Positions 22,882 through 43,734 of a DNA stretch of 46,853 nucleotides are shown in pieces. The position numbers and the translations under genes were made by a program. This DNA comes from Runella sp. (GTDB lineage: Bacteria; Bacteroidota; Bacteroidia; Cytophagales; Spirosomataceae). Each line of letters opens with the position of its first letter. Within the stretch, counting starts at the first letter, position 1. A model generated the notes under the pieces. It did not search any database, was not told where the DNA came from, and saw only the letters and a program-made list of their open reading frames with translations. The DNA is taken from NCBI RefSeq assembly GCF_027484545.1, contig NZ_JAIXST010000287.1, positions 1 to 46,853 on the forward strand. Direction: 5' to 3'.

Positions 22882-23052
22882 CTATTTGATACGGTCTGCA
22901 TTAAACTTTAAACGGCGAAATAAATCGTTACGTTCTTGACTGTCAAGTCCTTTCAATGGATCAGATTGAGTAGTATGGGCCATATAGAACATGGCAGCAG
23001 ATACTGCTAAACCTACTAACCCTGTAATACTCACCAATATTAAAATTTCCAT
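22882..23052 (-). CDS. Small single-span membrane protein, 56 residues
   Basis: An ATG at 23050-23052 opens a 57-codon frame ending TAG at 22882. The product starts MEILILVSITGLVGLAVSAAMFY, a clear membrane helix, followed by a charged tail ending LFRRLKFNADRIK. I recognise no family. Support for a real gene comes from one of the five shared promoter modules 42 bp upstream (23094-23160) and a terminator downstream. Being under the same module as BON proteins and coiled-coil lipoproteins, it is probably an envelope-stress protein. Confidence 0.7.
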   Translation of the reverse strand: MEILILVSITGLVGLAVSAAMFYMAHTTQSDPLKGLDSQERNDLFRRLKFNADRIK

Positions 23053-23093
23053 GACTTATACTATTTTATATTTTTTGCTCAACTACCATGATA

Positions 23094-23160
23094 CAAAGAT
23101 GACTCTCTTTCCACTTAATTGTGTTACACATTTAACTCAAAGAATTACATCATTCCCACT
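23094..23160 (-). promoter_or_regulatory. Shared stress promoter module, copy 1
   Basis: Written on the plus strand: CAAA of the -7 box (23094-23097, minus-strand CATCTTTG), TTACAC at 23124 and TTACAT at 23145, exactly 21 bp apart, then CATTCCCAC as a degenerate form of the ATTCACACAT flank. It lies 42 bp upstream of the ATG at 23052. Confidence 0.65.
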
Positions 23161-23317
23161 TTTGCCAAATCAAAAATGAATAAAGCGATGAAATGATATA
23201 AACAAAACCCCATTGAGGCTGAACGCCAATGTTGACATTGACACGCGCCTGTGCTCCGGTAGTTTGTAAGAGATTCTTGTTTAGCAAGAGCATAACAACA
23301 AGAATCGATATTTTCAT
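23150..23317 (-). pseudogene. Truncated secreted/outer-membrane protein remnant
   Basis: From the ATG at 23315-23317 the frame gives a signal peptide (MKISILVVMLLLNKNLL), then RVNVNIGVQPQWG. This is the start of a common Bacteroidota secreted protein family in which QPxWGPVGYD is followed by a Tyr-rich domain. Here the sequence diverges right after QPQWG into an unrelated 17-residue tail. It looks like a 5' fragment of a deleted gene. The next gene upstream (lipoprotein) ends 13 bp away. Confidence 0.5.
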
Positions 23318-23330
23318 TTTACAATTGTAT

Positions 23331-23759
23331 TTAAAAATTATCGGTTGATAACACGACTTGGGTACCCGGAGATTGAGTACTCGGATCGTCTTCGGCGGTA
23401 ATAAATAGTTTGGTAGGTTTAAATGAAGATACTGACTCAAAAGACGCTTTTAATTGCCTTGACAGAATACCCGTTGAGCTTTTTATTTGCCCAATATTTT
23501 TAGTTATATCCTGATCGGTAACCATCCAAATTACGTACGTTTGTTTTGATGGCTGTAGTCGTTGGACTTCCGCTAAATCGAATAAGTGAATTTGAATAAC
23601 GTAGTTTTTATTTCTGTCATGATTTATATTTACATAACCTCGCGCTGCAGGAACGACGGGGGATGTTAAAAAGTTGATTTTTTTAGAACAGGACGCAAGT
23701 GATAATAGCACTAAAAGGGTTAGAACAGTCAGTATGTTATTTTTTAGTATTGTTTTCAT
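23331..23759 (-). CDS. Hypothetical lipoprotein, 142 residues
   Basis: The N-terminus is a lipoprotein signal with lipobox SLASC (Cys24), so the product is probably anchored in an envelope membrane. The mature part is about 118 residues with a beta-rich core (YVNINHDRNKNYVIQIHLFDLAEVQRLQP, TYVIWMVTDQD) and a Ser/Thr-rich C-terminus ending VVLSTDNF. The YVIWMVTD stretch recalls the extracytoplasmic domains of anti-sigma-K-like proteins, but similarity by eye is weak. A terminator (23811-23848) separates it from the next gene upstream. Function unknown. Confidence 0.7.
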   Translation of the reverse strand: MKTILKNNILTVLTLLVLLSLASCSKKINFLTSPVVPAARGYVNINHDRNKNYVIQIHLFDLAEVQRLQPSKQTYVIWMVTDQDITKNIGQIKSSTGILSRQLKASFESVSSFKPTKLFITAEDDPSTQSPGTQVVLSTDNF

Positions 23760-23810
23760 TGGTTAAGTTTTTAAATATTTTTTTTAATTTATTTGTGGAA
23801 AAAACTAAAC

Positions 23811-23848
23811 AAAAAAGCCATTTCACATTGCTACGAAATGGCTTTTTT
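23811..23848. terminator. Bidirectional-looking intrinsic terminator
   Basis: A perfect 14-bp stem (AAAAAAGCCATTTC with GAAATGGCTTTTTT) with a 10-nt loop and poly-A/poly-T flanks. It ends transcription of the outer-membrane barrel gene at 23911-24549 on the minus strand. Confidence 0.85.
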
Positions 23849-23910
23849 GTTTTTTAATCAGCTTCCATGCGAAGATTTGGCAGCCATTTTAAAGATTAAA
23901 CTTCGGCTTT

Positions 23911-24549
23911 TTAAAATCTGAATCCAACTGTCGCCTGTAACCAAGTGTTTTTGTAACGTGGAGTGGTAGAAGTTCCATTTCCGTTATTGTTCATACTGTC
24001 CCATCCCGCTCTGGCACCGATGACAAGATGGCTTACGTTGATATTGACACCGCCAATAAAGCATAATGTATTTTTACGGATATTCTCATTCTCAAACTCA
24101 TTCTCCTGCAGAATCGTCGTAGCTCCATTGGCAAACACATCTTTTTGTTTCAAAAGATACGAAAATTGAGGGCCGACTAAGAGCGTTAAAAAACTGACGG
24201 GTTTTATGGCAAGAAACAGGGGAACATCAATATAATTGGTGGTACGGGTAAAATCATAGGAGCTGCCCAGTATTGTACCAGTTGCCTGAAATCCTTTTTG
24301 AGAAAACAATACTTCGGGTTGGATACCCACGTATTTGCCAAGTGGAATACCCAGAAATACACCCGCAGCTAAACCAACTTTGGCATTTGCGTTAAATTGA
24401 TCTCCTTTTGAATCATAGACATTTGAGTAATTAATTCCTGCCTTAATTCCGACCTGAATCTTTTCCCGTCCATCATCCGAACTTCCCTGTGCGTGGCTAA
24501 TCGTGAAGGCTGATGCAATGATTAGCAGTAATAAAAGTAAATTTTTCAT
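23911..24549 (-). CDS. PorT-like outer-membrane beta-barrel protein (OMP_b-brl_2 type)
   Basis: The 212-residue product has a signal peptide (about 1-20, ending SHAQG). It carries the eight-stranded barrel pattern of the Bacteroidota porin family: VGIKAGINYSNVYD near the start, VGLAAGVFLGIPLGKYVGIQPEVLFSQKG in the middle, LFLAIKP, LLVGPQFSYLL and a C-terminal strand ending VGFRF with terminal Phe, the barrel-assembly signal. Such proteins are usually surface-exposed and of unknown function. It is a single-gene unit, with a strong terminator downstream. Confidence 0.85.
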   Translation of the reverse strand: MKNLLLLLLIIASAFTISHAQGSSDDGREKIQVGIKAGINYSNVYDSKGDQFNANAKVGLAAGVFLGIPLGKYVGIQPEVLFSQKGFQATGTILGSSYDFTRTTNYIDVPLFLAIKPVSFLTLLVGPQFSYLLKQKDVFANGATTILQENEFENENIRKNTLCFIGGVNINVSHLVIGARAGWDSMNNNGNGTSTTPRYKNTWLQATVGFRF

Positions 24550-24605
24550 TGTCTTGGTGGTTAATACTTTGTTTTCAATTTTATTTTAACTATTTGAAAT
24601 AGAGG

Positions 24606-25046
24606 CTAATTGGTATTTTTAACTACCAAATCTTTAAATGCTTTACCAAGCTCGTCCATATCGTGACTAAACTCCGTCTTGAACATTTTCCATCTTTCTT
24701 TTCCGTCTACTTTATAGTCATCCATTCTTAGTTTCATGTCGTTGTTCTTTTGCTTGAGTTCAGCAATTTTTTTCCGATAATCGACTTTAGCTTCTTCTTT
24801 TTCGTTTTCTATTTTAGTACTAAACTCCGTTATTTTTAAGTCGTTTTCCGCTATTTTTTCTGCTATTTCTTTCCGATAAGTGACTACCTCATCCAAGTAT
24901 TCTTTGTTCGCTTTATCTAAGTCCTCATTGGCTTTTGTTACATTATCCTGAGCCACTTTTACCTTTTGAGAGGGCTTCATGCAGCCTGTTAAAATTCCAC
25001 CTATTGTAAAGGCAAAGATTGTCAATGTTAAGATTGATTTTTTCAT
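24606..25046 (-). CDS. Coiled-coil lipoprotein (paralogue of the gene at 27055-27495)
   Basis: I use the ATG at 25046, which starts a lipoprotein signal with lipobox LTGC (Cys22); an earlier start adds about 39 residues out of context. The mature protein is almost wholly charged coiled coil (about 30-115), with the central repeat KEIAEKIAENDLKITEF. It ends with FKTEFSHDMDELGKAFKDLVVKN. The same C-terminal block occurs in the paralogue 2 kb away. A shared stress promoter module precedes it (25100-25167). The conserved C-terminal helix is a likely contact site for a partner or the cell wall; function unknown. Confidence 0.8.
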   Translation of the reverse strand: MKKSILTLTIFAFTIGGILTGCMKPSQKVKVAQDNVTKANEDLDKANKEYLDEVVTYRKEIAEKIAENDLKITEFSTKIENEKEEAKVDYRKKIAELKQKNNDMKLRMDDYKVDGKERWKMFKTEFSHDMDELGKAFKDLVVKNTN

Positions 25047-25099
25047 TTTTTTCTTTATTAATTTAAATTCAAGATTTAATGTGGTGCAGTACCTACATA

Positions 25100-25167
25100 C
25101 AAATTTTGCACTATTAAAACTGTAAAGTATTATACATTTATAAGGGATTTTTATACATGTCACACAT
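25100..25167 (-). promoter_or_regulatory. Shared stress promoter module, copy 2
   Basis: CAAA at 25100-25103 (minus-strand TTTG), TATACAT at 25131 and again at 25152 (exactly 21 bp apart), then CACACAT to 25167. It lies 54 bp upstream of the coiled-coil lipoprotein start. The hexamers vary more than in the other copies but the spacing is kept. Confidence 0.6.
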
Positions 25168-25210
25168 TTTTAAACGCCATTTTCCACAGAAATTAACGAT
25201 TAATTTTAGG

Positions 25211-25354
25211 TTAACCCATTGTCAAATACCCCAATAAATACGCAACTACCATTAAGTCAATTCCTACGAGAACGATTGAAAAAATAATAGTTTTTATATG
25301 TACTTTACGAGATGATTCCTCATCTTTGATACTTTCTTTTTCAATTTCTCTCAT
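25211..25354 (-). CDS. Small membrane protein, 47 residues
   Basis: An ATG at 25352-25354 opens a 48-codon frame ending TAA. The product has a charged N-terminus (MREIEKESIKDEESSRK), then one membrane helix (KTIIFSIVLVGIDLMVVAYLLGYL). A GTG 18 bp upstream (25370-25372) is an alternative start adding six residues. The KT-I-F-x-I-x-x-x-x-ID-x-x-x-x-AYLLG pattern is faintly like DUF2061 membrane proteins, but that is a weak resemblance. It lies between two stress genes on the same strand. Confidence 0.55.
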   Translation of the reverse strand: MREIEKESIKDEESSRKVHIKTIIFSIVLVGIDLMVVAYLLGYLTMG

Positions 25355-25504
25355 ACTATCTTTGTGTTTCACTCTATACTCAATTGTGAGTTGATCTAAG
25401 AATCATTCGTACTTGGAGAAAAAGTGTTTGTATTTGTTGAAATGAAGCCAATACCCGCAGTAACCGGTCATCAGTTGAAGAAAGATGCTTTTTACAGAAA
25501 AAAT

Positions 25505-25888
25505 CTAACGCATTGAAAAATAATCTCTTACGAAAGCGTGTTTTTGATTTTCCGTCATTTTATCAGATGGCTTCACTTTGATGATTATCTTATCAAAATG
25601 ATGATCAGCTTCCAAAATATTAGCCAGCTCAGTTTTGGCATTGGTAGGTCCAAAGAGCAGCACTTCTTCGTAATTTCTGATTACTTCACCCAATTTTTTG
25701 TAATATTCTGACTGCTGATGTTGCTCTTTATTATGCATCAGGTTTTCACTCTTACTTAGCGTAAACTCTTTTTCCTGATGATTAAATTTTGATTCAATAA
25801 TAGTAGTTTGAATGGGGTCGGGGGTAAGTTCCATTAAATGGGCGCTTTCCGAATCCATCCAAATGCCTATTTTTTTTGAGTTTGTCAT
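25505..25888 (-). CDS. Hypothetical protein, possibly related to bacterial eRF1-like/Pelota proteins
   Basis: The 127-residue cytoplasmic protein starts KKIGIWMDSESAHLMEL, with a central basic/Gln-rich linker. It then has a compact alpha/beta part: YYKKLGEVIRNYEEVLLFGPTNAKTELANIL, HFDKIIIKVKPSDKMTENQKHAFVRDYF. A strand-helix unit with (L/V)LFGPxxAKxEL followed by a Lys/Asp-rich strand resembles the third domain of eRF1-like proteins, some of which act at stalled or dormant ribosomes. That assignment is inference by eye. It stands alone between two stress genes. Confidence 0.6.
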   Translation of the reverse strand: MTNSKKIGIWMDSESAHLMELTPDPIQTTIIESKFNHQEKEFTLSKSENLMHNKEQHQQSEYYKKLGEVIRNYEEVLLFGPTNAKTELANILEADHHFDKIIIKVKPSDKMTENQKHAFVRDYFSMR

Positions 25889-25926
25889 GATTGTAATAAG
25901 TTTTCAATGATGTAAATAAGTCGTGT

Positions 25927-25956
25927 AAAGAAGGGAGAAATGCTCTCTCCTTCTTT
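25927..25956 (-). terminator. Hairpin downstream of the general stress protein gene
   Basis: AAAGAAGGGAGA pairs with TCTCTCCTTCTTT with a single bulge. The T-run on the minus strand is short and broken by C, so it is a weak terminator at best. Confidence 0.4.
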
Positions 25957-25983
25957 TATCAATCCACGAATACATAGTCCTTT

Positions 25984-26484
25984 TTAATACACAATTTTGT
26001 CGCCTACTCCCAAGGTTTCCTTGGCGGTTTCTATCTGTGCGGCTGTACCATGCGCTAAAAGTATGAATTTGCCGGCTTTAATGTCGGTTTCATATTCCAA
26101 AATACTGTCTTTCGGAACTCCTAAACTTACTAAAGCGGCCCCAAGCACACTCAGTCCCCCGACGGCTACCGCTCCTTCCAATGCTCCCACCAATGACGTC
26201 ACAAAAGGGCCTGCAATCAGTAAAGGCCCTATTCCAGGAATAAGAAAAAAGGCAGAACCAAACAGCAATCCCCACAGCCCGCCCCAGAAAGCTCCAATAC
26301 CACCCCATTTTTGCATTCGGTCGCCCATGTTGTAGTACCCAACTACATTCTCGTCGGTGTGGTAATCCTGCCCTACGATAGAAAGCTGTTTCATGTCATA
26401 ACCGCTTTTCTGTAATTCTCTGATTGCCATTTCTGCTTCTTCGTGCGTGTCGTAGAGCGCAACCATTGCATTTTCTTTGTCCAT
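25984..26484 (-). CDS. General stress protein (17M-like domain plus glycine-rich membrane segment)
   Basis: I use the ATG at 26484 (MDKENAMVALYDTHEEAE); the frame extends 28 codons further upstream into dps without support. The N-terminal part (about 1-55) is the YflT/17M heat-shock-like domain with ALYDTHEEAEMAIRELQKSGYDMKQLSIVGQDY. Next comes a Gly-rich hydrophobic region (about 65-135, GIGAFWGGLWGLLFGSAFFLIPGIGPLL), probably membrane-inserting. A small C-terminal domain ends GKFILLAHGTAAQIETAKETL. It follows dps by 56 bp on the same strand and probably belongs to its transcript. Confidence 0.8.
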   Translation of the reverse strand: MDKENAMVALYDTHEEAEMAIRELQKSGYDMKQLSIVGQDYHTDENVVGYYNMGDRMQKWGGIGAFWGGLWGLLFGSAFFLIPGIGPLLIAGPFVTSLVGALEGAVAVGGLSVLGAALVSLGVPKDSILEYETDIKAGKFILLAHGTAAQIETAKETLGVGDKIVY

Positions 26485-26540
26485 CGAATTTTTTTTAAGG
26501 TGTGTTTTTAAGTAACGATTGTATATATATGACGAAGAAA

Positions 26541-27065
26541 TCAGTTCAGGTATCTTCTCAATACCCAAGCAGTTGTCTCGTGTTGTTCAATGATTTTGGT
26601 CAGAAAATCGGTGGTGCCAGCGTCTTTATTTTTTTCGTTACATACCTCGATATCTTTCCTTAGTTGTACAATCACTGATTCATAATCGCCCAACAATTCT
26701 TTCATCATTTCTTTTTGGGTAGGATACTTACCGGGAGATTCTTTGATGGTGGACAGTTCGGCAAATTCTTGCATCGTACCTATTGTTTTACCTCCTAATT
26801 TATTAATTCTCTCCGCTACTAAATCAATGGTTTCTTCCAGTTCAGTGTACTGACTTTGAAATAATTTATGGAGCTCCATAAAACTTTCTCCCGATACATT
26901 CCAATGAAATTTTCTTGTTTTGACATACAAAGTCATTTCATTGGATAAAATCGCCGAAAGCAACGTAATGCTTTTATGAAGGTGCTTTTCTGTAATACCA
27001 ATTTCAGGTTTCATACTTCCGTTCGTTAATAGCGGCTCGGTGTTTGTTTTCAAGTTATTTGACAT
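26541..27065 (-). CDS. dps: Dps-family DNA-binding ferritin-like protein
   Basis: This 174-residue protein has the Dps ferroxidase region KFHWNVSGESFMELHKLFQSQY followed by ELEETIDLVAERI, and the C-terminal helix ending TAWVLRRYLN. Dps forms 12-mers that oxidise and store iron with hydrogen peroxide and shield DNA. The N-terminal 20 residues are polar and could bind DNA. Its start overlaps the end of the coiled-coil lipoprotein gene (27055) by 11 bp, so the two are translationally linked and share the module promoter at 27563-27630. Confidence 0.92.
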   Translation of the reverse strand: MSNNLKTNTEPLLTNGSMKPEIGITEKHLHKSITLLSAILSNEMTLYVKTRKFHWNVSGESFMELHKLFQSQYTELEETIDLVAERINKLGGKTIGTMQEFAELSTIKESPGKYPTQKEMMKELLGDYESVIVQLRKDIEVCNEKNKDAGTTDFLTKIIEQHETTAWVLRRYLN

Positions 27066-27495
27066 TTTTAACGGTTAAATCTTTAAAAGCTTGACCCAGT
27101 TCGTCCATATCATGATTGAACTCTGTTTTGAATGTTTCCCAATTTTCTTTTCCTTCAACTTTATAATCGTCCAGCTTCTTTTGCATATCATTATTTTTTT
27201 TCTCCAACTTATCTACTTGCTTTTGATAATCATCTTTGAATTCTTTCCTCTTAAATGCTATCTGGGTTTTAAACTCAGCGATTTTTTTATCATTTTCGGC
27301 GATTTTTTCAGCCGTTTCTTTTTTATAGTTTTCTACATCAATAAGGTATTCTTCCTTTGCTTCTTTCAAATCTACTTTGGCTTCCATCACCTCAATTTTA
27401 GCCTCATCTACTTTTTTTTCGGAGCTATTACAGCTTGTTACCAGTGAAAGAGCAATAAAGGCAAAGGCAGCCAATCCGATAATTGATTTTTTCAT
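27055..27495 (-). CDS. Coiled-coil lipoprotein (paralogue of the gene at 24606-25046)
   Basis: The 146-residue product has a lipoprotein signal with lipobox VTSC (Cys22). A long Lys/Glu coiled coil follows (about 27-115, with ETAEKIAENDKKIAEFKTQI) and the C-terminal block FKTEFNHDMDELGQAFKDLTVKN. The blocks EKIAEND, DYKV-GKE and FKTEF-HDMDELG are shared with the paralogue, so the ends are conserved while the coil drifts. It is the first gene of a unit with dps, behind promoter module copy 3. A lipoprotein coupled to Dps is unusual. Confidence 0.8.
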   Translation of the reverse strand: MKKSIIGLAAFAFIALSLVTSCNSSEKKVDEAKIEVMEAKVDLKEAKEEYLIDVENYKKETAEKIAENDKKIAEFKTQIAFKRKEFKDDYQKQVDKLEKKNNDMQKKLDDYKVEGKENWETFKTEFNHDMDELGQAFKDLTVKNVK

Positions 27496-27562
27496 TTCAG
27501 TTATTTTTATTGAATTAATAATTTGTTCTTTGCAAGTCCATCTTTTGAAATAACCTGCGTGA

Positions 27563-27630
27563 CAAAGGTGAGTTTTTTCACTTCAAAAATCATTACATAA
27601 TTACTTCAAAGAGTTACAACATTCACACAT
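27563..27630 (-). promoter_or_regulatory. Shared stress promoter module, copy 3
   Basis: CAAAGGTGAG at 27563 (minus-strand CACCTTTG as -7), TTACAT at 27593, TTACAA at 27614 (21 bp apart) and ATTCACACAT at 27621-27630. It lies 68 bp upstream of the lipoprotein-dps unit. Confidence 0.7.
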
Positions 27631-27645
27631 TTTGAAGCTTTGCAT

Positions 27646-28872
27646 TTACTCATACCTCAACGCATCAATTGGGTTCAACGCGGCAGCTTTTCGTGCCGGA
27701 TACCATCCAAAAAAAAGGCCGATGGCGGATGAAAACAAAAACGACAAAAGCACGGAAGAAATGGTGATGACGACGGGCCATCCGCCAAACTTTGCCACTA
27801 ATTGTGATGCCACTATTCCCAGTACGATTCCAAAGATTCCGCCTACAAAACTGATGACTATCGACTCTATCATAAACTGCGTCAAAATGTCTTTTCCTTT
27901 TGCTCCTATGGCCATGCGTATGCCTATTTCGTGGGTCCGCTCGGTAACCGATACCAGCATGATATTCATAATGCCGATTCCTCCCACCAAAAGCGAGATA
28001 CCGGCAATACTGGCGAGCAAAATGGTCATGACTTTAGAGATAGTCCCAAAAACTGTGCTGATTTCTGACTGCGTACGAACCGTAAAATCATTGTCGTCGG
28101 AGGGTGCGATCTTGTGTTTTTCGCGTAATAAAATCGAAATTTCATCGACCGCATCCACTACCTGACCCTCCGATTTTCCCGAAGCCAAAATACTGTTGAT
28201 GTACATGGAAGAAGACATCATCCGCTTTTGAACCGTCGAAAACGGCGCAATGATAATGTCATCCTGGTCTTGCCCAAAGGTATTTTGGCCCATTTTGGTA
28301 AGTACACCAATAATTTTTACGGGAATACTGTTAATCCGGATTGTTTCGCCAATTGGATTGTAATTTTCATCACCAAACAAATTTAACACCACCGTGAGAC
28401 CGACCAAACACACCTTGGCAGCAGTACGATCTTCATTGACCGTGAAGGTACTGCCTTGGGCAATCGTGAGCGAACGAATGGCCAGATAGTCGTTGGTAAC
28501 TCCCAAAATCGTAGTATTCCAATTTTGAGAGCCGTAAATGACCTGTGCTCTTTTTTGGTCAACGGGGGATACAAAATTGACCAAATCGCAATTGGCTTTA
28601 ATAGCATCCACATCTTCGATTCGAAGGGTCTTGTTGGAAGCAGCCCCCTGACTTACTCCTCCCGACATGTTATTGCCGGGATAAACCATGATGGAATTGG
28701 TGCCAAGGCTGGCAATGGAGGCTTTGATGTTTTGGTTGGAGCCTTCGCCAATGGCCAACATGGCTATCACCGAAGCTACGCCGATGATGATACCGAGCAT
28801 GATCAAAAAACTTCGGAGTTTATTCCGCATCAAGGAGCGAAAAGCTACTTTAAATAAGTTGAAGGTTCTCAT
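27646..28872 (-). CDS. MacB-type ABC transporter permease
   Basis: The 408-residue protein has an N-terminal membrane helix (about 18-40, LRSFLIMLGIIIGVASVIAMLAIGEGSN), a large periplasmic domain, and three C-terminal helices (about 275-400). The hallmark segments are GGIGIMNIMLVSVTERTHEIGIRMAIGAKG and FFGWYPARKAAALNPIDALRYE. In MacB the ATPase is fused to this part; here it is a separate gene overlapping by 4 bp (28869-28872). With the adaptor upstream it forms a tripartite exporter for peptides, lipoproteins or macrolide-like compounds. No TolC-like outer-membrane protein is encoded in the window. Confidence 0.92.
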   Translation of the reverse strand: MRTFNLFKVAFRSLMRNKLRSFLIMLGIIIGVASVIAMLAIGEGSNQNIKASIASLGTNSIMVYPGNNMSGGVSQGAASNKTLRIEDVDAIKANCDLVNFVSPVDQKRAQVIYGSQNWNTTILGVTNDYLAIRSLTIAQGSTFTVNEDRTAAKVCLVGLTVVLNLFGDENYNPIGETIRINSIPVKIIGVLTKMGQNTFGQDQDDIIIAPFSTVQKRMMSSSMYINSILASGKSEGQVVDAVDEISILLREKHKIAPSDDNDFTVRTQSEISTVFGTISKVMTILLASIAGISLLVGGIGIMNIMLVSVTERTHEIGIRMAIGAKGKDILTQFMIESIVISFVGGIFGIVLGIVASQLVAKFGGWPVVITISSVLLSFLFSSAIGLFFGWYPARKAAALNPIDALRYE

Positions 28873-29633
28873 GTAGTTGATTTTTCTTCCGAGAGTTGGG
28901 CGATGAGTTTCAATTCTTCGGTGGCATTTTTTCGCTCTTTTACCGCTTCGTTGGCAATGATTTTCCCGTCTTTGAAAACAATGTTGGTCTTGGCAAATTG
29001 AGCAATATCGGGTTCGTGCGTCACCATCACAATGGTAATTCCGGCGTCATTCAATTTCTGAAAAATCTGCATAATCTCGTAACTGGTGCGTGAATCAAGG
29101 TTGCCCGTAGGCTCATCAGCCATGATTACGATGGGGTCATTCACTAACGAGCGGGCAATGGCCACTCGCTGTTGCTGACCTCCCGACAACTCATTGGGCA
29201 TAGCATTGACGCGGTCACCCAATCCGACGGATTTGAGGGCATCGAGAGCTTTATCGCCGTAGTCTTTGGGTGAAATGGTGTTGTTGTAAAGCAGGGGTAA
29301 TTCCACATTTTCCAAGGCCGAAGTACGGGGTAAAATATTGAACGACTGAAAAACGAAACCGAGCTTTCGGTTTCGTAACTCTGCCAATTCATCCCTGCTT
29401 CGTCCAAGAACATCTATACCCTCCATTGTATACGTTCCAGCAGTTGGGTTATCGAGACAGCCCAGAATATTCATAAATGTAGATTTTCCCGAACCGCTCG
29501 CTCCCATGATGGCCAAAAATTCGCCTTTATCAATCGTAAGTGAAACATCACTAAGTGCGGGAACTTCGGTAGTGCCTGTTTTGTAGGTTTTTACCAAGTT
29601 TTTTACGGTAATCAGGTTTTCCGGGTTTTTCAT
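28869..29633 (-). CDS. MacB/LolD-type ABC transporter ATP-binding protein
   Basis: This 254-residue ATPase shows Walker [10 protein letters not shown], the Q-loop in [11 protein letters not shown], signature [15 protein letters not shown], Walker [13 protein letters not shown] and an H-switch in VTHEP. It is slightly longer than usual because of a charged C-terminal tail ([21 protein letters not shown]). The gene starts 1 bp after the unshifted end of the adaptor (TAA at 29635-29637) and overlaps the permease by 4 bp, so the three form one operon. Confidence 0.95.
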
Positions 29634-29717
29634 GTTATCTTTTTCTGCTCGGCATTTTCGGCATGAACGGACTCGAAGACTTTGTATCGGTGGGTGGTGA
29701 TTGATTGACGCCCGTGG

Positions 29718-30869: not shown

Positions 30870-30941
30870 TATAGAAAATGGAAAAAACCTCTCAAGAGTT
30901 AAGACTTTTTGAGAAGTTTTAAGCGCAATACATAACGTTGA

Positions 30942-31526
30942 TTATATGAGTCTCGTAAAATAAGATACAGTACCATCCATACTCACCTGTACCACAATTT
31001 TCTTGTTTTCTTTTTTCAATTCTACAAAGTAATGATCGGCGTCTTCAAATCGTTTATTGAAAAAAATCATGTTGGAATTGACAGGACCATTGTCGTCATA
31101 TTCTATAATGTCGCCTACGGTATAACTTTTGTAATATTCATTGATGTATTTTTGGCCAATGGCAGGCAAATCCGAGAAGGTTTTAATCGTAGTGGTACCT
31201 ACCAATTTGGTATCATAATCGTAGAAGGCAGTTTGTATTTTTCCGTCCTTCATAAAAGTAGCTTCATCAAAATGGTCTGTTCTTTCCCACTGTGCATTTT
31301 GGGAAATGCCAAAGTCGCTCATCAGCTGTTTTTTGGATTGTTCACTTACCTCTTTTCCCGCCAATTCTCTCAACTCCATTTTAGCTTCGTGCTTTTCTAC
31401 ACTAAGCTCAGCTTCTTTTTTCTCAATTCGTGCAATGTCTTTTTTAATCGCCGCCTTTTCTGTTTGGGCGTTGATGGCTGTAACAAAAACAAGCATTGAA
31501 ACAGCAATTGAAAGTAACTTTTTCAT
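30942..31526 (-). CDS. Secreted hypothetical protein with PepSY-like domain
   Basis: The 194-residue protein has a signal peptide (ending INAQ at about 21), then a Lys/Glu helical region (about 24-60). The C-terminal part is beta-rich, with FGISQNAQWERTDHFDEATFMKDGKIQTAFYDYDTKLVGTT and a second unit IIEYDDNGPVNSNMIFFNKRFEDADHYFVELKK. This resembles Bacteroidota PepSY-like (putative beta-lactamase-inhibitor-like) periplasmic proteins; the match is by eye. It lies 72 bp upstream of the macA gene, so it could belong to that operon or have its own promoter. Confidence 0.65.
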   Translation of the reverse strand: MKKLLSIAVSMLVFVTAINAQTEKAAIKKDIARIEKKEAELSVEKHEAKMELRELAGKEVSEQSKKQLMSDFGISQNAQWERTDHFDEATFMKDGKIQTAFYDYDTKLVGTTTIKTFSDLPAIGQKYINEYYKSYTVGDIIEYDDNGPVNSNMIFFNKRFEDADHYFVELKKENKKIVVQVSMDGTVSYFTRLI

Positions 31527-31594
31527 ATTTTTATTTCTAATAAATGGTTTAAATCACTTGTCAAATTTGTGCACAGTGTGGTAGAAATGTTCAT

Positions 31595-31801
31595 CTATTT
31601 AGTTTTAATTGCTTTTTTGATTTTCTTATCTGTTTTCTTTACAATTTTTTTAATGGATTTTTTTACTACCTTCTCAATTTTATCCGTTAATTCATCTTTA
31701 TTCTCTTTGAGAACCTTATGCACTGCTTCTATCATTTTTTCTTTTAAAGATTTTGCTTCCGAAGGCTTTACCGTTACAGTTTTTACAACTTTCTTTTCCA
31801 T
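31595..31801 (-). CDS. Small lysine-rich protein, 68 residues
   Basis: Almost half of the residues are Lys or Glu/Asp. Residues 1-15 read MEKKVVKTVTVKPSE, followed by a helix (SLKEKMIEAVHKVLKENKDELTDKIEKV) and a very basic tail of KKSIKKIVKKTDKK type. The basic tail resembles nucleic-acid-binding tails of small histone-like proteins, but I see no known fold, so no function is claimed. Its position between the OYE gene and the PepSY-like gene, all on one strand, places it in the stress block. Confidence 0.6.
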   Translation of the reverse strand: MEKKVVKTVTVKPSEAKSLKEKMIEAVHKVLKENKDELTDKIEKVVKKSIKKIVKKTDKKIKKAIKTK

Positions 31802-31849
31802 GATTATTTTATTTAATTGTTAGGATAGGTTCTAATAGGATGCTGGTTT

Positions 31850-32959
31850 TTATTCAAGTTGAAGTACTAACTGTTCTTTGAAATTGGGGTAATCTGTATA
31901 GCCTTTTTCGTCAGCCGTATAGAATAATTCCGTTTTAAGATTTTGCGATAATTCCTGATTGTGTTCTAATCGTTCTACTAAATCAGGATTATTGATAAAT
32001 GGTCGGCCAAATCCGATAAGGTCACACAAGCCACTTTCAAGGTCGGCTTCTGCGCTGTCTTTGTCATAGCCCCCGCAAATAATAAGGGTGTTTTTAAAAT
32101 TGTGACGAATCAATTTTTTAATTTCAATAGGCACCGTGGGCGCACCCATGGCAGAATGGTCAACAAGATGGATATAAGCAATCCCCAATTTATTGAGTTC
32201 TTTTGAGAGGTAATCGTAGGTTGCATCAATTTCCGGATAATTGGGCATGTCGCCCGCCACGCCATAGGGAGATAAACGAATCCCTGTTTTATCTTTACCA
32301 ATGGCGGCTGCCACTGCGGTTGCCACTTCAATCACAAAGCGGCAACGATTTTCAATCGTGCCATCATACTTGTCGTGACGGACGTTGCTGGCAGGTGACA
32401 GGAATTCTTCGAGTAAATAGCCGTTTGCGCCGTGCAGTTCAACGCCATCGAATCCTGCTTCCATTGCATTTTTGGCAGCTGTTACATACTCGGCTTGAGT
32501 CGAAACAATGTCTTCAGTAGTCATTGCTTTGGGAGTAGGGTAGTCCTGCATTCCTTTGGCATCTGTCCACATCTGACCAGTTGCTTTTATAGCAGAAGGG
32601 GCTTCTATCTGCGTACCTTTTGGCATATTCAGAATGTGGCTTATTCTTCCCGTGTGCATCAGTTGCACAATTATTTTTCCACCGCTTTTGTGCACTGCTG
32701 ATGTTGTCTTTTTCCAACCGAGTAGTTGTGCTTCACTAAAAATGCCCGGAATACGGGCATAGCCCAATCCATTGGGAGAAGGTGAGGTGCCTTCGGTGAT
32801 AATTAAACCGGCCGTGGCTCGTTGTTGATAATAACTTGCCATTAAGTCATTGGGGATATTGTCGATAGCTCGGCATCGGGTCATAGGAGCCATCACAATA
32901 TGATTTTTTAGTTCTAAAGAACCGACTTTTGCAGCGGCAAATAATTTGTAGTTTTTCAT
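31850..32959 (-). CDS. Alkene reductase, old yellow enzyme family (first copy)
   Basis: The 369-residue TIM-barrel flavoprotein has the OYE hallmarks: N-terminal [13 protein letters not shown], the FMN/substrate region [30 protein letters not shown] and [16 protein letters not shown]. Such NemA-like enzymes use NADPH to reduce activated C=C bonds and nitro compounds and commonly answer electrophile stress. A close paralogue of 367 residues lies at 40128-41231, with long identical stretches, pointing to a duplication in the element. It follows the SOUL and aldehyde dehydrogenase genes on the same strand. Confidence 0.94.
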   Translation of the reverse strand: MKNYKLFAAAKVGSLELKNHIVMAPMTRCRAIDNIPNDLMASYYQQRATAGLIITEGTSPSPNGLGYARIPGIFSEAQLLGWKKTTSAVHKSGGKIIVQLMHTGRISHILNMPKGTQIEAPSAIKATGQMWTDAKGMQDYPTPKAMTTEDIVSTQAEYVTAAKNAMEAGFDGVELHGANGYLLEEFLSPASNVRHDKYDGTIENRCRFVIEVATAVAAAIGKDKTGIRLSPYGVAGDMPNYPEIDATYDYLSKELNKLGIAYIHLVDHSAMGAPTVPIEIKKLIRHNFKNTLIICGGYDKDSAEADLESGLCDLIGFGRPFINNPDLVERLEHNQELSQNLKTELFYTADEKGYTDYPNFKEQLVLQLE

Positions 32960-33110
32960 TTTATTTGTTTTTACACCGACTATTTAAGTTAAGTAATAAG
33001 ACAATTTTAATCACCGCTGCGGCGAACCGCGCAAAGCCGCTAAACCGTTGATAATAAGCACTGCTTCGGCCGTGAATTTTAAAACTATAGTGTATGCTTA
33101 CTTAAATGCT

Positions 33111-33710
33111 TTATTTTGAATCCCAATTAAGTGACACAATAATTTCATTTTTTCTTCCAATTAGTTGGTAGGGAGGATTGTATCCTAAATAGCGAAAATT
33201 CCCGTAGTAAGAAAGGTGATGTTCTTTCAGAGAACTTTCAAGCATTTCAGTGTACTTTTTTATATTCTCGTCTGAAGTAAATCCTCCAAATTGAATGGCA
33301 GCCACGTATTCGTCAGGCGTAGTTTTAATAGCTATATCTGAATTGTCAGGCCGTGGCAAATTGTCTTTATTGTAATTTGAAGGCATCACAAAACTCATAC
33401 TCGAAACCGAATCTCCGATATCCATGTGTACTGGAGAAGTCATGGCTATTTTCATTTTATCTTTATTTCCACCAAAAATGTAACTGGCTAATTTTGCGAA
33501 GCCTGAACTGCCCAGTTCTTTGTAGGTTTTGGCAGAAGACGTAATCATTGCCATCGTTGCGGAGGGATAGTGTCGAATTTCAAAATTTCCCTCCGTCCGA
33601 ATTACTTTGTAAGCCTGGGTTTCTGTTTTATTGACTGACATGGTGGCGTATATTTGAAAGGCAATGAATAAAACAAAAATGATGATTGTTAGTACGAGAA
33701 CAATTTTCAT
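33111..33710 (-). CDS. SOUL-family haem-binding protein
   Basis: The 199-residue product has an N-terminal membrane anchor (about 2-22, IVLVLTIIIFVLFIAFQIYA). The SOUL domain follows, with KTETQAYKVIRTEGNFEIRHYPSATMAMITSS at the start, KMKIAMTSPVHMD in the middle and PPYQLIGRKNEIIVSL at the end. These match the p22HBP/SOUL consensus (YEVRxYPxxxxA, IxMTxPV). Bacterial members bind haem or related tetrapyrroles; the physiological role is unsettled. It lies 14 bp after the succinate-semialdehyde dehydrogenase gene. Confidence 0.9.
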   Translation of the reverse strand: MKIVLVLTIIIFVLFIAFQIYATMSVNKTETQAYKVIRTEGNFEIRHYPSATMAMITSSAKTYKELGSSGFAKLASYIFGGNKDKMKIAMTSPVHMDIGDSVSSMSFVMPSNYNKDNLPRPDNSDIAIKTTPDEYVAAIQFGGFTSDENIKKYTEMLESSLKEHHLSYYGNFRYLGYNPPYQLIGRKNEIIVSLNWDSK

Positions 33711-33724
33711 GGTGGTTTTAACGA

Positions 33725-35107
33725 TTAAAAAGGGTCGCTTAATTCACTTATCCGGATTAGTTTTTTGTTTACAAATTCATCCAAACCTAGCTCCGCCATT
33801 TCACGTCCATAGCCCGAGCCTTTTGTGCCTCCAAATGGCAGATCGGCTTGCGTCCAAGTTGGGTGATTGATGAAAACCATTCCGGTGTCAATTTGATTAG
33901 CAATTCGTTTGCCTCTTTCAATGTCTTGCGTAAACACCGAACCGCCTAAACCAAAAGGAGAATCATTGGCCAGCGCAATGGCTTCCGCTTCATTTTTCAC
34001 TTTAAAGAAAAGCGCCACCGGGCCAAAAAATTCTTCGTAAAAAACGGGGTTTTCCGGTTTTACATCGGTTAGAATGGTGGCCTGCATATAAGCCCCTTCT
34101 CGGTCTACTCTTTTGCCTCCCAACAAAATTTTTGCACCACCATCCACCGCTCTCTTTACTTGGTCGGCTATTTTTACGGCTGCTGCTTCTGTGCAAAGCG
34201 GGCCTAAGTGAGTAGCGGCTTCCATAGGGTCGCCAACTACCAAATCGGCTAATTTATTTTTGAATTTTTCCAGAAATGTGTCTGCAATGCTTTCTACGGC
34301 GATGAAGCGTTTGGAAGCCACGCAACACTGACCGTTGTTATTGATTCTGCCGACAACTGCCCACTCCACGGCTTGGTCAATATCGGCATCTTCCAGAATA
34401 ATAAAGGCATCGCTGCCCCCCAATTCTAAAACGGACTTTTTTATATGCTTACCTGCTTCTGCGGCGACACTTGCCCCTGCGGTTTCGCTACCCGTAAGCG
34501 ATACTCCTTTGACCCTTTTGTCGGCTACCAATTCAGTGATCCTTTGGTGAGAAACCAAAAGATTGGTATAAAGTCCAAGCGGTGCTCCGGCTTCTGTAAA
34601 TAGTTCTTCAATGGCTATGGCACATTGCGGTACATTGGCAGCGTGTTTGATCAATACTGTATTTCCGATCATGAGGTTGGGTGCCGCAAAACGGGCTACC
34701 TGATAAAACGGAAAATTCCAGGGCTGGATACCAAGCAACACTCCAATGGGGCTGTATCGTATGAGTGCTTTTCCGTGAACTGGGTTTAATAGTTTGTCTG
34801 CTAAAAACCCCTCCGCATTTTTTGCGTAGTAATCAAATATTTCGGCACTTAACTTTATTTCCCCTTCAGCATGAGTTAACAGTTTGCCCATTTCTAACGT
34901 TATCATTTGGGCAAGTTCTTTTTTGTTTGCTCTGAGCAAACCAGCTACTTTATACAATAGCTGCGCTCGCAATTTATAGTCCGTTTTCTTCCATTCGTCA
35001 AATGCATCTGCTGCTTTTATTATCGCTTTATCAACCGCGACATCCGTCATTTCATCGAAAGATTTGACTACTTTATTGGTCGCGGGATTTGTTGTTTGAA
35101 ACGTCAT
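33725..35107 (-). CDS. gabD: NAD(P)-dependent succinate-semialdehyde dehydrogenase
   Basis: The 460-residue aldehyde dehydrogenase has the active-site Glu in VLELGGSDAF and the nucleophilic Cys in NNGQCCVASKRF (two adjacent Cys, the second in the usual position). The cofactor region PWNFPFYQVARFAAPNLMIGN is present, and the C-terminal FGGTKGSGYGREMAELGLDEF is typical of the SSADH-like group. It would oxidise succinate semialdehyde or other reactive aldehydes to acids. The neighbours (SOUL protein, OYE) fit a detoxification unit. The family is broad, so substrate is moderately sure only. Confidence 0.88.
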   Translation of the reverse strand: MTFQTTNPATNKVVKSFDEMTDVAVDKAIIKAADAFDEWKKTDYKLRAQLLYKVAGLLRANKKELAQMITLEMGKLLTHAEGEIKLSAEIFDYYAKNAEGFLADKLLNPVHGKALIRYSPIGVLLGIQPWNFPFYQVARFAAPNLMIGNTVLIKHAANVPQCAIAIEELFTEAGAPLGLYTNLLVSHQRITELVADKRVKGVSLTGSETAGASVAAEAGKHIKKSVLELGGSDAFIILEDADIDQAVEWAVVGRINNNGQCCVASKRFIAVESIADTFLEKFKNKLADLVVGDPMEAATHLGPLCTEAAAVKIADQVKRAVDGGAKILLGGKRVDREGAYMQATILTDVKPENPVFYEEFFGPVALFFKVKNEAEAIALANDSPFGLGGSVFTQDIERGKRIANQIDTGMVFINHPTWTQADLPFGGTKGSGYGREMAELGLDEFVNKKLIRISELSDPF

Positions 35108-35138
35108 AACTTTATTTTTGGAAAGGTTATTTTTTGAA

Positions 35139-35172
35139 TTTTTAAGCGGTGGGTTTCTCCATTGCTTAAAAA
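35139..35172 (-). terminator. Hairpin downstream of BON-domain gene 1
   Basis: TTTTTAAGC pairs with GCTTAAAAA, and the stem extends inward through GGTGG/CCATT with two G-T pairs around a 6-nt loop. No separate U-tract follows, so its terminator function is likely but not certain. Confidence 0.5.
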
Positions 35173-35179
35173 TTATTAA

Positions 35180-35848
35180 TTAACTAAAAGCATACTCATA
35201 ATCGACGGCCAATTCATTTTTTACGTGCCATATACCCAGAGTATCCCAAGCAATACGACCTGCTTCATCTTTTTGATACCAAGAATCAACCGTTCCTGTT
35301 AGAGTAACTGTTGTTGCAGACACTGATACATTAATATCACTGTTATCTACTGACCAACTTCTGCCGATAGCATCTTCAACATCCTTCTTTTCAATCACAT
35401 CGTGGCTTTCCGATTTGATTTTAATGTTGTTGGTTACTCCTTTAATACATGTCAGATAATTTACCGCACTTTTTGCCGCATCTTTTTGGTAGTTCCAAGG
35501 CAATTCACCTTCCAAAGTAACCCAGCCATCTTCCACTTTTACGGTTACTTTATCATTAGGAACCGACCAGTTATTTCTTAAACCCGTTAGCACTTCATTC
35601 GCAACTTCCGCATCAGTCTTTGACCATGATTTAGGAAGTTCCACTTCAATTTTTTCAACCAAAGCTTTTACTCCAATTACTTTTTTTGCAGCACTTTCTG
35701 CTTCTATTTTTTTTGCATAACTGTCCACCACACCGGTCAAAGAAACAACACCATCTTTGGCAGTAACTCCAATCTCTTCTGCATTCAACAACGGCTCCCA
35801 TTTGATGGCGTTTTGAACGTCTGTCTGCAGTTCCTGATTAGTTTTCAT
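35180..35848 (-). CDS. Triple BON-domain protein 1
   Basis: I start at the ATG at 35848 (MKTNQELQTDVQNAIKWEPLL); an upstream TTG-type extension has no support. The 222-residue product contains three BON domains (about 1-70, 78-148, 150-220), each with an x-V-xLxGxV unit: [45 protein letters not shown]. There is no signal peptide, so it is probably cytoplasmic despite the envelope link of BON domains. BON domains bind membranes or ligands; in this arrangement they are typical osmotic and stress-induced proteins. A paralogue lies 1.4 kb away, and both are behind the same promoter module. Confidence 0.88.
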   Translation of the reverse strand: MKTNQELQTDVQNAIKWEPLLNAEEIGVTAKDGVVSLTGVVDSYAKKIEAESAAKKVIGVKALVEKIEVELPKSWSKTDAEVANEVLTGLRNNWSVPNDKVTVKVEDGWVTLEGELPWNYQKDAAKSAVNYLTCIKGVTNNIKIKSESHDVIEKKDVEDAIGRSWSVDNSDINVSVSATTVTLTGTVDSWYQKDEAGRIAWDTLGIWHVKNELAVDYEYAFS

Positions 35849-35888
35849 TATACCTATTTTACATTGTGAATGAACTTTCACAACGGCA

Positions 35889-35956
35889 CAAAGGTGTGTA
35901 TTATACTCAGCTGAAACCTTACATTAGTATCAAAATAAATTACATGATTCACACAT
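35889..35956 (-). promoter_or_regulatory. Shared stress promoter module, copy 4
   Basis: CAAAGGTG at 35889 (minus-strand CACCTTTG), TTACAT at 35919 and at 35940 (exactly 21 bp apart) and ATTCACACAT to 35956. It lies 41 bp upstream of BON gene 1. The rest of the gap up to 36165 shows nothing recognisable. Confidence 0.75.
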
Positions 35957-36165
35957 TATTTCAGTTAAAATAGTTATGATCAAATTGGGTATTATAAGGG
36001 GAGCTTCGGCACCTAAAATAGTCGTTCAATAGTTAAGCTTGTTAACGAAAAAAAGGAGTAAACAATATCAAATTTTCATACCTATTAACGCGCTATTTAC
36101 CATATCATAAATAGTAAAAATTCAGATTAGGTCACCACTCTCACATCAAATTTTATTACAGCCCA

Positions 36166-36831
36166 TTACCAAACGGGTGCAATCTGTTGTTTTGAATTTG
36201 AAATTTCTATCATAATAGCATAAACGGATATACTGATGATGGATGAGAAAAAACACCAAACAGATAGAATATAGTGCTCATAAAATAGAGCTGTGATTAA
36301 ATAAGAAATCAAAACTGCTACGCCTAACATCCACATTCTTTTTATGTGTGAAAAAAACGGAGGAGCAATGGTTGCTAAAGCATATAACCCAATAACATAT
36401 ATTCGAAGCGACGCAGGATAATTTTGGATATAGGCAATGTGATGTCCGATTATTTTTGCCTGTATCTGATACGACAACAAGCAGTAGGCCAGGTAAAATC
36501 CAACTATGATACCCGCTCCTATCAGTATTTTTTGTACTTTTTTTCGAGTACTGTTTTTTTCAAGCAGTATTATGGCAACGGGAACCCACAGTGGCCAGAG
36601 AATTTGGGCAAAAAACAGGAAGGTATAGGTTGCAATTCTTTGCGTGGCAACATTGTCCAGATTTGGGAGTGTTACCCACAAAATGCCCTCCGCTACCTGT
36701 TGAACCGCAAAAATCAATGGGATACTCGCAAAAAGTAATTGGGAAGGTTTGTGTGCTTTTTTTATTGATACAACACCAATAACCGAAAGAACAACACCTG
36801 CCCCAAAACTCGCATTAGCCGAAAAGCACAT
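36166..36831 (-). CDS. DUF6629-type multi-pass membrane protein
   Basis: The 221-residue protein has about seven membrane helices and begins MCFSANASFGAGVVLSVIGVVSIKKA, the N-terminal signature of DUF6629-like proteins. It also has the conserved FAVQQVAEGILWV and FFAQILWPLWVPVAIILLE segments. The conserved Cys2, a Gln/Glu pair and Trp residues inside membrane segments are suggestive of a small-molecule or metal site, but nothing is known to me about function. It stands in the stress block, 46 bp downstream of a small single-span membrane protein gene, possibly with it in one transcript. Confidence 0.75.
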   Translation of the reverse strand: MCFSANASFGAGVVLSVIGVVSIKKAHKPSQLLFASIPLIFAVQQVAEGILWVTLPNLDNVATQRIATYTFLFFAQILWPLWVPVAIILLEKNSTRKKVQKILIGAGIIVGFYLAYCLLSYQIQAKIIGHHIAYIQNYPASLRIYVIGLYALATIAPPFFSHIKRMWMLGVAVLISYLITALFYEHYILSVWCFFSSIISISVYAIMIEISNSKQQIAPVW

Positions 36832-36877
36832 AAAGTTATTATTTGAAATGAATGAGAATAAGTTTAGCTGTAATGAA

Positions 36878-37171
36878 CTATTTATCAGTCTTTTTATTTT
36901 TTTTCAATAAAAGAGTTCGGGCAGAAGCACTGTCAATTAGTAAATTATTTACTGGGATTTTATTGATGTTTACCACCTGAACTTTTGCGGGCACTTTTTC
37001 TATTGCAATAAATTTATTTGACAGAAGTAATACTATTGAAATTAAAATGGCTATAGTGGTTAGGCTAACTCCGTTGGTATATCTCTTATTTCCTTTTTCA
37101 GTAATTTTCACATTCTTACTGTAAGAATTCGTATTTGCTTCTATTTCGTAAAGCAAAATTTCCTTATACAT
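36878..37171 (-). CDS. Hypothetical single-span membrane protein, 97 residues
   Basis: A polar N-terminus (MYKEILLYEIEANTNSYSKN) is followed by one membrane helix (about 36-52, LTTIAILISIVLLLSN) and a basic C-terminal region ending LLLKKNKKTDK. I recognise no family. The frame is intact, has an upstream A-rich region, and lies on the strand of all its neighbours. It precedes the DUF6629 gene by 46 bp. Confidence 0.55.
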   Translation of the reverse strand: MYKEILLYEIEANTNSYSKNVKITEKGNKRYTNGVSLTTIAILISIVLLLSNKFIAIEKVPAKVQVVNINKIPVNNLLIDSASARTLLLKKNKKTDK

Positions 37172-37263
37172 TTTTATTTTGTCATGTATCTATCACCGCC
37201 TGTTTGACTAAAAAAGAGCTATTCTTTAATCATAATTACTACTTTCAAAAGTTAATTTTTACG

Positions 37264-37288
37264 TTAAAAAGGGGAAAAAATCCCCCTT
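37264..37288 (-). terminator. Intrinsic terminator after BON-domain gene 2
   Basis: On the minus strand AAGGGG and CCCCTT form a stem around a T-rich loop, followed directly by further T. It lies 7 bp after the BON gene 2 stop. Confidence 0.7.
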
Positions 37289-37294
37289 ACCAGG

Positions 37295-37969
37295 CTAATT
37301 TACCAAGACATAATCATAATCGATTACTAATTCGTTATCGACTGTCCAAACCCCGGGTGCATTCCAGGCAATTCGTCCGGCTTCCTCTTTCTGGTACCAT
37401 GAATTAACGATGCCGGTTAAAGTTACGTTATGAGCTAACACTTTCACGTGAATATCTTCGTCGTTAATTGACCAGTTCCGTTTTAAACCATTCTCGATGT
37501 CATGTTTTTCAATCTCATCGTTGGTTTCGGATTTAATAGTGATGTAGTTTGATACGCCCGTTACGCCCAACAATTTTTTTACGGCATTTTTGGCCGCTTC
37601 TTTTTGATAATTCCAATGAAGCTCTCCTTCGAGCGTTACCCACCCTTTTTCAACTTTTACTTTTATTTTGTCGGCGGGAATTTCCCAATTCCATTTAAAC
37701 GCATTGATGACTTCATTGGCAATGTTGTTATCATCTTTTTTAGCCAACGTATTGTCAAATCTAACTTTAATCTCTTCGACTACTACTTTGACTCCTGCCA
37801 CATTTTTAGCGGCCTCTTCCGCTTCTGATTTCTTGGAATAACTGTTCACATTTCCCGTCAATGTAACAATACCGTCTTTCACCGAAACTCCAATTTCTGC
37901 AGCATTTAATAATGACTCCCATTTAAGGGCATTCTGTACATCTTTTTGTAATTCTTCGTTAGTTTTCAT
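37295..37969 (-). CDS. Triple BON-domain protein 2
   Basis: The ATG at 37969 ([21 protein letters not shown]) aligns with the start of the paralogue at 35848, which supports it over an upstream start. The 224-residue product has three BON domains with [30 protein letters not shown] and [14 protein letters not shown]. The order of domains and many residues are shared with BON protein 1, so a tandem duplication with later insertion of three genes is likely. No signal peptide. It has promoter module copy 5 upstream and a terminator downstream, hence is a one-gene unit. Confidence 0.88.
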
Positions 37970-38006
37970 AGTAACTATTTTTAGTTGTGAAAGATTTTCC
38001 ACGGGG

Positions 38007-38073
38007 CAAAGATGAGACTTTTAAGCGCTGAAATGTTACATCATTATTATAAATGGTTACATTATTCACACAT
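38007..38073 (-). promoter_or_regulatory. Shared stress promoter module, copy 5
   Basis: CAAAGATGAG at 38007 (minus-strand CATCTTTG), TTACAT at 38036 and at 38057 (21 bp apart) and ATTCACACAT at 38064-38073. It lies 38 bp upstream of BON gene 2. This is one of the two cleanest copies. Confidence 0.75.
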
Positions 38074-38188
38074 CAAGAATGCTTATTAGCGCTATTCATA
38101 TTGATTATAAAGATAGCTACTGCGACTTGAATACATTTCAGAAAAGGAGGGCTTCTATTTTGATGGTTGCCTAATAAACGTATGTTGT

Positions 38189-43363: not shown

Positions 43364-43734
43364 TTACTTTCTTATAAATCGTTTTTTCATGTTCTCAAAA
43401 AATACCTCTCTGTTTTTTTTAAACACTTCCCGCAGCCGCCTTCTTGCTACTTTCACTTCACTTCCATCCGTCATTAAAATGCAAAGTTTTGTCCTACGAA
43501 ATCGCACAATAAAGTTGCGATTAACAAAATGGCTCTCTTGTGTATACGTAAGAATTCGGGCGGTAAACAGGCCTCGTACAAACTGAGGGTTTTAGAAGAA
43601 AGGTGCTGCGTTCCGTCTGTGAGAATGAAGAGGGTGTAGTTTCCATCACCGGTCAAACGCAGTACCTCATGCCACAGAAATGGCAATTTATACTTATTTG
43701 CATAAAAGCGGGTGGAGCAAAATGAGTGGTTCAT
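43364..43734 (-). pseudogene. Single-domain LytTR DNA-binding regulator, frameshifted
   Basis: From the ATG at 43732-43734 the frame reads through most of a LytTR domain (LPFLWHEVLRLTGDGNYTLFILTDG, LSSKTLSLYEACLPPEFLRIHKRAIL) and ends early at 43474. One missing base near 43525 would continue it as VNRNFIVRFRRTKLCILMTDGSEVKVARRRLREVF and end at TAA 43364-43366. Joined, it is a compact LytTR regulator without receiver domain, as common in Cytophagales. LytTR proteins bind direct repeats about 21 bp apart, the same spacing as in the five promoter modules here. Confidence 0.75.

Follow-up and report, generated by a model that had tools for sequence, protein, structure and literature searches.

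A promoter module with direct repeats in 21-bp phase before putative stress-type genes of Runella, and its association with a clade of short AraC-family proteins

Introduction

AraC of Escherichia coli acts at araI1-I2 through an AraC-type DNA-binding domain and 17-bp half-sites, which form a direct repeat 21 bp apart and of which the proximal one adjoins the upstream element of the polymerase. LytTR regulators, among them AgrA and ComE, likewise use direct repeats upstream of the promoter, with a spacing of about two helical turns that includes 21 bp. Here we analyze a stretch of 46,853 nt from Runella sp. (contig NZ_JAIXST010000287.1; this whole stretch is called the window below), in which five genes stand behind a shared promoter module. 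The module shares the half-site length, the 21-bp direct repeat and the position beside the polymerase's upstream element with the E. coli AraC site, and the candidate regulator shares its DNA-binding domain. We propose that the module is probably the operator-promoter of a stress-type regulon under a short AraC/XylS activator with a copper-chaperone-like (HMA-fold) N-domain, in contrast to the sugar-binding cupin of E. coli AraC. Further differences from that system are the many target genes and the location of the operator, which at several loci lies partly within the last codons of the regulator's own gene. Unlike in the systems of AgrA and ComE, no LytTR gene is tied to the module here.

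The genes involved include types known from the sigma-B regulon of Bacillus and the sigma-S regulon of E. coli (Dps, BON, CsbD, YtxH and YflT). In contrast to these regulons, the modules keep a −7 box of the primary-sigma type, and the activator proposed is AraC-type, not an alternative sigma factor. No general stress regulator for Bacteroidota was found described in open-access PMC papers.

Results and discussion

Five modules in the window

All five modules lie on the minus strand and, read in gene sense, have the layout ATGTGTGAATnATGTAAC-N15-TGTAAC, followed after 24–26 bp by a TTTG −7 box. An earlier note on this DNA had reported pairs of TTACAT-like elements at 23124/23145, 25131/25152, 27593/27614, 35919/35940 and 38036/38057. 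Reading of the bases confirmed this observation, with a spacing of exactly 21 bp in five of five pairs and a ATTCACACAT-like flank in every module; in plus-strand reading, the CAAA of the −7 box begins 29–31 bp ahead of the first TTACAT-like element, again as reported. The flank is part of a half-site of 17–18 bp, and the unit is thus larger than previously described. The −7 box at a fixed distance is a conserved feature of the modules.

The modules were scored with profile R1 (from alignment A2), which contains only modules of other genomes, namely 78 of 213 (40 of 138 exact pattern matches and 38 of 75 matches with 1–3 mismatches). Visual selection favoured rows with clear −7 boxes, and the box is therefore partly built into the profile, but it was visible before picking too. 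Run unfiltered on the window, R1 placed the five modules at ranks 1–5, all on the minus strand, while rank 6 had an E value of 0.18. Operator 1, two half-sites in 21-bp phase, lies at 23124..23161 (bases read; R1 match 23089-23163, E 1.2e-14) and its −7 box, CATCTTTG, at 23094-23101. Operator 2 (25131..25168; match 25097-25170, 14.7 bits, E 0.0012), with the −7 box TTTG at 25100-25103, is clearly degenerate, and this module at 25.1 kb misses E 0.05 when R1 is run on the whole host genome. The other four modules have E values between 9e-17 and 4e-14. Operators 3 (27593..27630; match 27561-27633, 56.7 bits, E 9.1e-17), 4 (35919..35956; match 35884-35958, E 2.8e-14) and 5 (38036..38073; match 38004-38074, E 3.6e-14) are accompanied by the −7 boxes CACCTTTG at 27563-27570, CACCTTTG at 35889-35896 and CATCTTTG at 38007-38014, respectively.

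An ungapped weight matrix made from the same rows gave scores of 64.5, 60.4, 54.2, 24.0 and 15.4 for the five modules and −26.1 for the sixth place in the window. All five exceeded 200 dinucleotide shuffles (lowest module 15.4, best shuffle −4.8). TTACA pairs with a period of 21 bp occur four times in the window, compared to a mean of 0.125 and a maximum of 2 in 200 shuffles, and no other period between 8 and 40 bp is represented by more than one such pair in the window.

Modules in the host genome and in other genomes

Searching the host genome with R1 yielded 17 matches at E ≤ 0.05, which comprise four window modules and 13 others. Behind the latter stand genes for a Bestrophin-like protein, a pyridoxal phosphate (PLP) decarboxylase, rubrerythrin and small proteins, and also for a PepSY-like protein (below its cut-off) and for a protein without a Pfam match that by eye looks like a cupin. 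Another match stands ahead of a DUF2383 gene, the open reading frame (ORF) of which begins about 300 nt further on. Contig C131 ends before any gene behind its module is readable. The matches on C192, C236 and C294 are weak (20–27 bits), and those on C133 and C236 span model positions 12–76 only and stand before genes for a DUF3347 protein and a copper-type P-ATPase. At C133 (G000:C133:46603-47233), the short module-like site lies at the 3′ end of a CxxC-type AraC paralogue and ahead of the DUF3347 gene, and the site at C236 (G000:C236:5196-5260), ahead of the P-ATPase gene, is of the same kind. These two sites perhaps represent a sister copper regulon.

A scan with the exact pattern, one genome per species, returned at least 118 module stretches (0.87 Mb); all counts for the 118 loci refer to the matches listed. 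Among these, 79 of 80 locus titles belong to genera that we take to be Bacteroidota and one reads “uncultured bacterium”, which suggests that the module is restricted to this phylum. The weight matrix finds modules scoring above 25 in 109 of the 118 loci, 195 in total, and these modules as well as those of the window have the arrangement expected of AraC-type sites, that is, direct half-sites ~21 bp apart with the proximal one near −35/−33. Within the phylum the distribution is patchy, with modules in 2 of 12 congeners of the host by pattern; G009 and G003 belong to the host's genus.

The start codon follows the 78-bp module at a median distance of 33 nt (186 distinct downstream ORFs, called mechanically). 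When the first genes behind the modules were clustered by sequence, the largest group had 15 members, ice-binding-like proteins among them, and was followed by CsbD-like proteins (11), coiled-coil lipoproteins like those of the window (11), MlaE permeases (11), cupins (10) and OmpA-like proteins (9). A Pfam scan of 133 of the 186 ORFs, in which 25 of 56 families are among the matches listed, found MlaE (9), cupin (7), OmpA (6), CsbD (6), beta-barrel (6), ice-binding (5), ferritin-like (2), YtxH (2) and manganese catalase (1) domains. Because several such families are members of sigma-B or sigma-S regulons in other bacteria, the putative targets are called general-stress-type, as judged by their gene content. 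A search of open-access PMC full text for the motif strings of the module retrieved no paper. The suggestion of the earlier note that the modules mark a shared, undescribed stress regulon thus gains support from the 17 host matches, from the like kinds of genes behind modules elsewhere and from the lack of a description in the literature searched.

Association with a clade of AraC-family proteins

When the ORFs of the 118 loci were clustered, the DNA-binding family that recurred in the 45 clusters listed, a chained mixture of kinases and receivers aside, was an AraC protein of ~186 amino acids (aa). In a profile search this protein was found in 23 of the 118 loci at ≥172 bits, compared to one locus for LytTR. 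The host has an uninterrupted copy with an HTH_18 domain outside the window (G000:C261:5769-6326).

Co-occurrence was evaluated in two samples. Modules with at most one mismatch are present in 9 of 59 relatives, and AraC at ≥283 bits in 9/9 of these but in only 1/50 of the others (Fisher p = 8e-10); the tenth AraC genome, G006, has weaker R1 matches beside its AraC gene. Among 296 genomes of the phylum, the AraC occurs in 12 of 17 genomes with an R1 match of ≥35 bits and in 10 of the other 279 (Fisher p = 4.5e-12), a link looser than in the relatives but strong. When the 1-mismatch pattern was used for these 296 genomes, 10 of 17 pattern genomes were among the 22 with AraC and 7 lacked it. Four pattern genomes without AraC (G255, G265, G282 and G330) have single matches, and some 1-mismatch matches in genomes lacking AraC resemble coding sequence (TGT..TGT codons for CxxC). 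Profile R1 was therefore used in addition to the pattern.

An adjacency test with 123 R1 matches (to about E 0.009) and 80 A1 matches, two fragmentary ones dropped, showed that 15 of 80 wider-family AraC genes of the relatives have a module on the same strand at −30 to +100 nt from the 3′ end, where random placing would give ~0.003; four of the 15 genes score ≥283 bits. A module lies within 5 kb of 10 of the 12 AraC genes at this score. In loci L105, L116, L121 and L137, the end of the ATGTGTGA box coincides with the stop codon of the AraC gene. Of 43 AraC genes in the host and its kin, 6 have a matrix site at this offset; the scores, 13 to 46, are mostly low, and in five of the six the box, by eye, ends in a stop codon. 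Genome G269, which comes on top of the 12 with both an R1 match and the AraC, has its module at the 3′ end of an AraC gene that scores 240 bits, and in the host an R1 match overlaps the 3′ end of a second AraC copy on contig C229. The module precedes the AraC gene itself in L118, L155 and L187. On plasmid NZ_CP030852.1 of Runella rosea (L369), two modules lie between the AraC gene and a divergently oriented gene with an ice-binding annotation; therefore, the pair can sit on plasmids, which is in keeping with the patchiness of the modules among congeners.

The candidate regulator is assigned to the AraC/XylS family by its predicted C-terminal DNA-binding domain, which in this family has two HTH motifs. 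Pfam HTH_18 was detected in the host copy and in 16/16 rows of the AraC profile A1, and the predicted structure (mean predicted local distance difference test score 88.4, predicted template modelling score 0.64) matches AraC-family structures (16 Foldseek matches at E ≤ 0.001). The predicted N-domain is ferredoxin-like and resembles copper chaperones (Foldseek E 0.03–0.09; template modelling score 0.62–0.65 over the target), and Pfam HMA was found in 1/16 rows. When the MxCxxC metal site was checked alongside these matches, the host and most kin members of the clade were found to read MVSxRC, whereas paralogues outside the clade keep MVCxRC. The loss of the Cys is not universal, as many Bacteroidales clade members keep both residues (MVCxRC). 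A tree united all 28 module-linked rows and nine rows with weaker sites nearby in one 37-row clade (support 100/99); since bit score and A1 membership decided which rows were labelled as module-linked, their grouping is in part a product of the labelling. A short module-like site also stands at the 3′ end of five paralogues outside the clade. Nothing relevant on HMA-AraC regulators was found in open-access PMC papers. The window itself contains an ordinary AraC-family ORF of 287 aa at 5636-6499, which matches profile A1 at E 9.9e-12, far below the stress clade.

Proposed mechanism and alternative explanations

Each operator would consist of two directly repeated AraC half-sites with a spacing of 21 bp. 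The distal half-site would be the strong one, with two boxes about one helical turn apart in ATGTGTGAATnATGTAAC, and in the proximal half-site mainly the TGTAAC box is conserved. This proximal box, which ends 24–26 bp ahead of the −7 TTTG, would lie beside the position of the −33 element. Two AraC monomers on one face of the DNA could then recruit RNA polymerase with the primary sigma factor to the TAnnTTTG-type −7 box (PMC9723704, PMC7366714), as AraC does at araI1-I2. The main texts of these two papers do not contain the word “AraC”, and in open-access PMC no relevant paper on 21-bp AraC half-sites was retrieved. We infer that AraC binds the module, that it activates rather than represses, and that the N-domain or a partner senses the signal; a kinase/receiver gene that follows AraC may provide an input.

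Several observations weigh against this assignment. Within the fetched stretches, 95 of the 118 module loci lack such an AraC gene, and the second host copy (G000:C229:20619-21176, L298) has one internal TGA. R1 matches of ≥44 bits occur in G069, G074, G247 and G330, which have no AraC of the clade (best scores 147, 154, none and 198 bits, respectively), and 10 of the 22 AraC genomes lack an R1 match of ≥35 bits. The first box of the proximal half-site is weak. Moreover, the 16 rows of A1 were selected from AraC genes beside modules, the cut-offs of 283 and 35 bits were set post hoc after the lists had been seen, and the regulator is assigned from genome comparisons, with binding and activation being predicted.

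The earlier note had explained the repeats by LytTR recognition, with the LytTR gene at 43364-43734 of the window as the possible regulator, and neither part of this explanation is supported. Besides the suitable repeat spacing, the host's 46–47 LytTR domains and the fragment in the window would speak for such a regulator. However, only the one module locus mentioned above contains a LytTR protein, as judged with a profile whose control, the recovery of 30/30 host LytTR loci, is its own training set. LytTR genes are present in 55 of the 59 relatives, in 9/9 with modules but also in 46/50 without, and co-occurrence thus does not discriminate. The window gene is interrupted, and its longest open piece covers LytTR positions 10–57 of 98 and scores 20.3 bits (cut-off 22.6). 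By eye, the rest of this gene continues in another frame. LytTR was rejected as the regulator on the neighbourhood and co-occurrence counts, and binding of the TTACAT repeats by this or another LytTR protein of the host appears highly improbable. Two-turn spacing of direct repeats is an AraC arrangement too, and the AraC subfamily is favoured over LytTR because neighbourhood, co-occurrence and site anatomy fit.

Direct control by a two-component system, a hybrid kinase with receiver, would make AraC a mere fellow target or neighbour. Kinases and receivers form the largest neighbour cluster (33 loci), a gene of this type closely follows AraC in 7 of the 23 AraC loci (L118, L130, L155, L164, L182, L187 and L112), and the module before AraC in three loci indicates that AraC can be a target. 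Yet many kinases and receivers are chained together in this mixed cluster, and in 16 of the 23 loci the 3.5 kb downstream of AraC contain no gene of this type. In addition, distant AraC paralogues have a module-like site in the same place with a different 5′ part (model positions 12–76), as if site and AraC changed together. The cluster was rejected as the regulator for being a chained mixture that follows AraC in those seven loci only, and we regard control by such a system as unlikely. A similarly unlikely explanation is a second regulator, AraC-type or other, that is common to all module genomes and binds the site, while the clade binds only some modules. It would account for the four module genomes without the clade, and the module cluster of G069 includes an ordinary AraC gene of 298 aa (L364 10932-13685). 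This gene was seen in one genome only, however, and the clade is the sole recurring DNA-binding family among the clusters listed, the kinase/receiver mixture aside. A regulator from the AraC clade remains the explanation that we prefer.

Genes behind the modules in the window

The genes behind the five operators, as well as dps and the YflT gene, are encoded on the minus strand. The gene behind operator 1 (22882..23052) encodes a protein of 56 aa that is probably a membrane protein, and those behind operators 2 (24606..25046) and 3 (27055..27495) encode coiled-coil, lipoprotein-like proteins of 146 aa each. Proteins that look alike by eye to the product of the operator-3 gene stand first behind modules at other loci. 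The end of this gene is overlapped by a ferritin-like dps gene (26541..27065; PF00210, E 7.4e-33), which is followed by a gene for a YflT-domain stress protein (25984..26568; PF11181, E 3.1e-10) whose ORF begins at a TTG, the probable start lying further in. Operators 4 and 5 precede genes for BON-domain proteins (35180..35848, PF04972, E 3.4e-42, and 37295..37969, PF04972, E 3.8e-48). Pfam thus bore out the two BON proteins and Dps named in the earlier note, while its terms “membrane protein” and “lipoprotein” reflect a reading of the sequence for three proteins that gave no Pfam match.

Between both BON genes, at 36166-36831, the window encodes a DUF6629 protein with a look-alike, by eye, near modules in G069 (L365). 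A 117-aa protein at 43766-44119 resembles by eye a protein directly behind a module in L094; R1 detected no module ahead of the window copy.

Significance

More tentatively, the AraC clade may be a general stress regulator of many Bacteroidota, widespread and partly plasmid-borne. It might derive from copper-linked HMA-AraC proteins with a changed N-terminal metal site and a changed operator, and would direct polymerase with the primary sigma factor to gene types that are under sigma-B or sigma-S elsewhere. The presence of sister AraC genes next to genes of copper type points to a possible route from a metal sensor to a stress regulator. The operator profile can be used to annotate such regulons in many genomes, and with a defined operator, a regulator clade and a target list, the gap of a stress regulator in Bacteroidota becomes directly testable.

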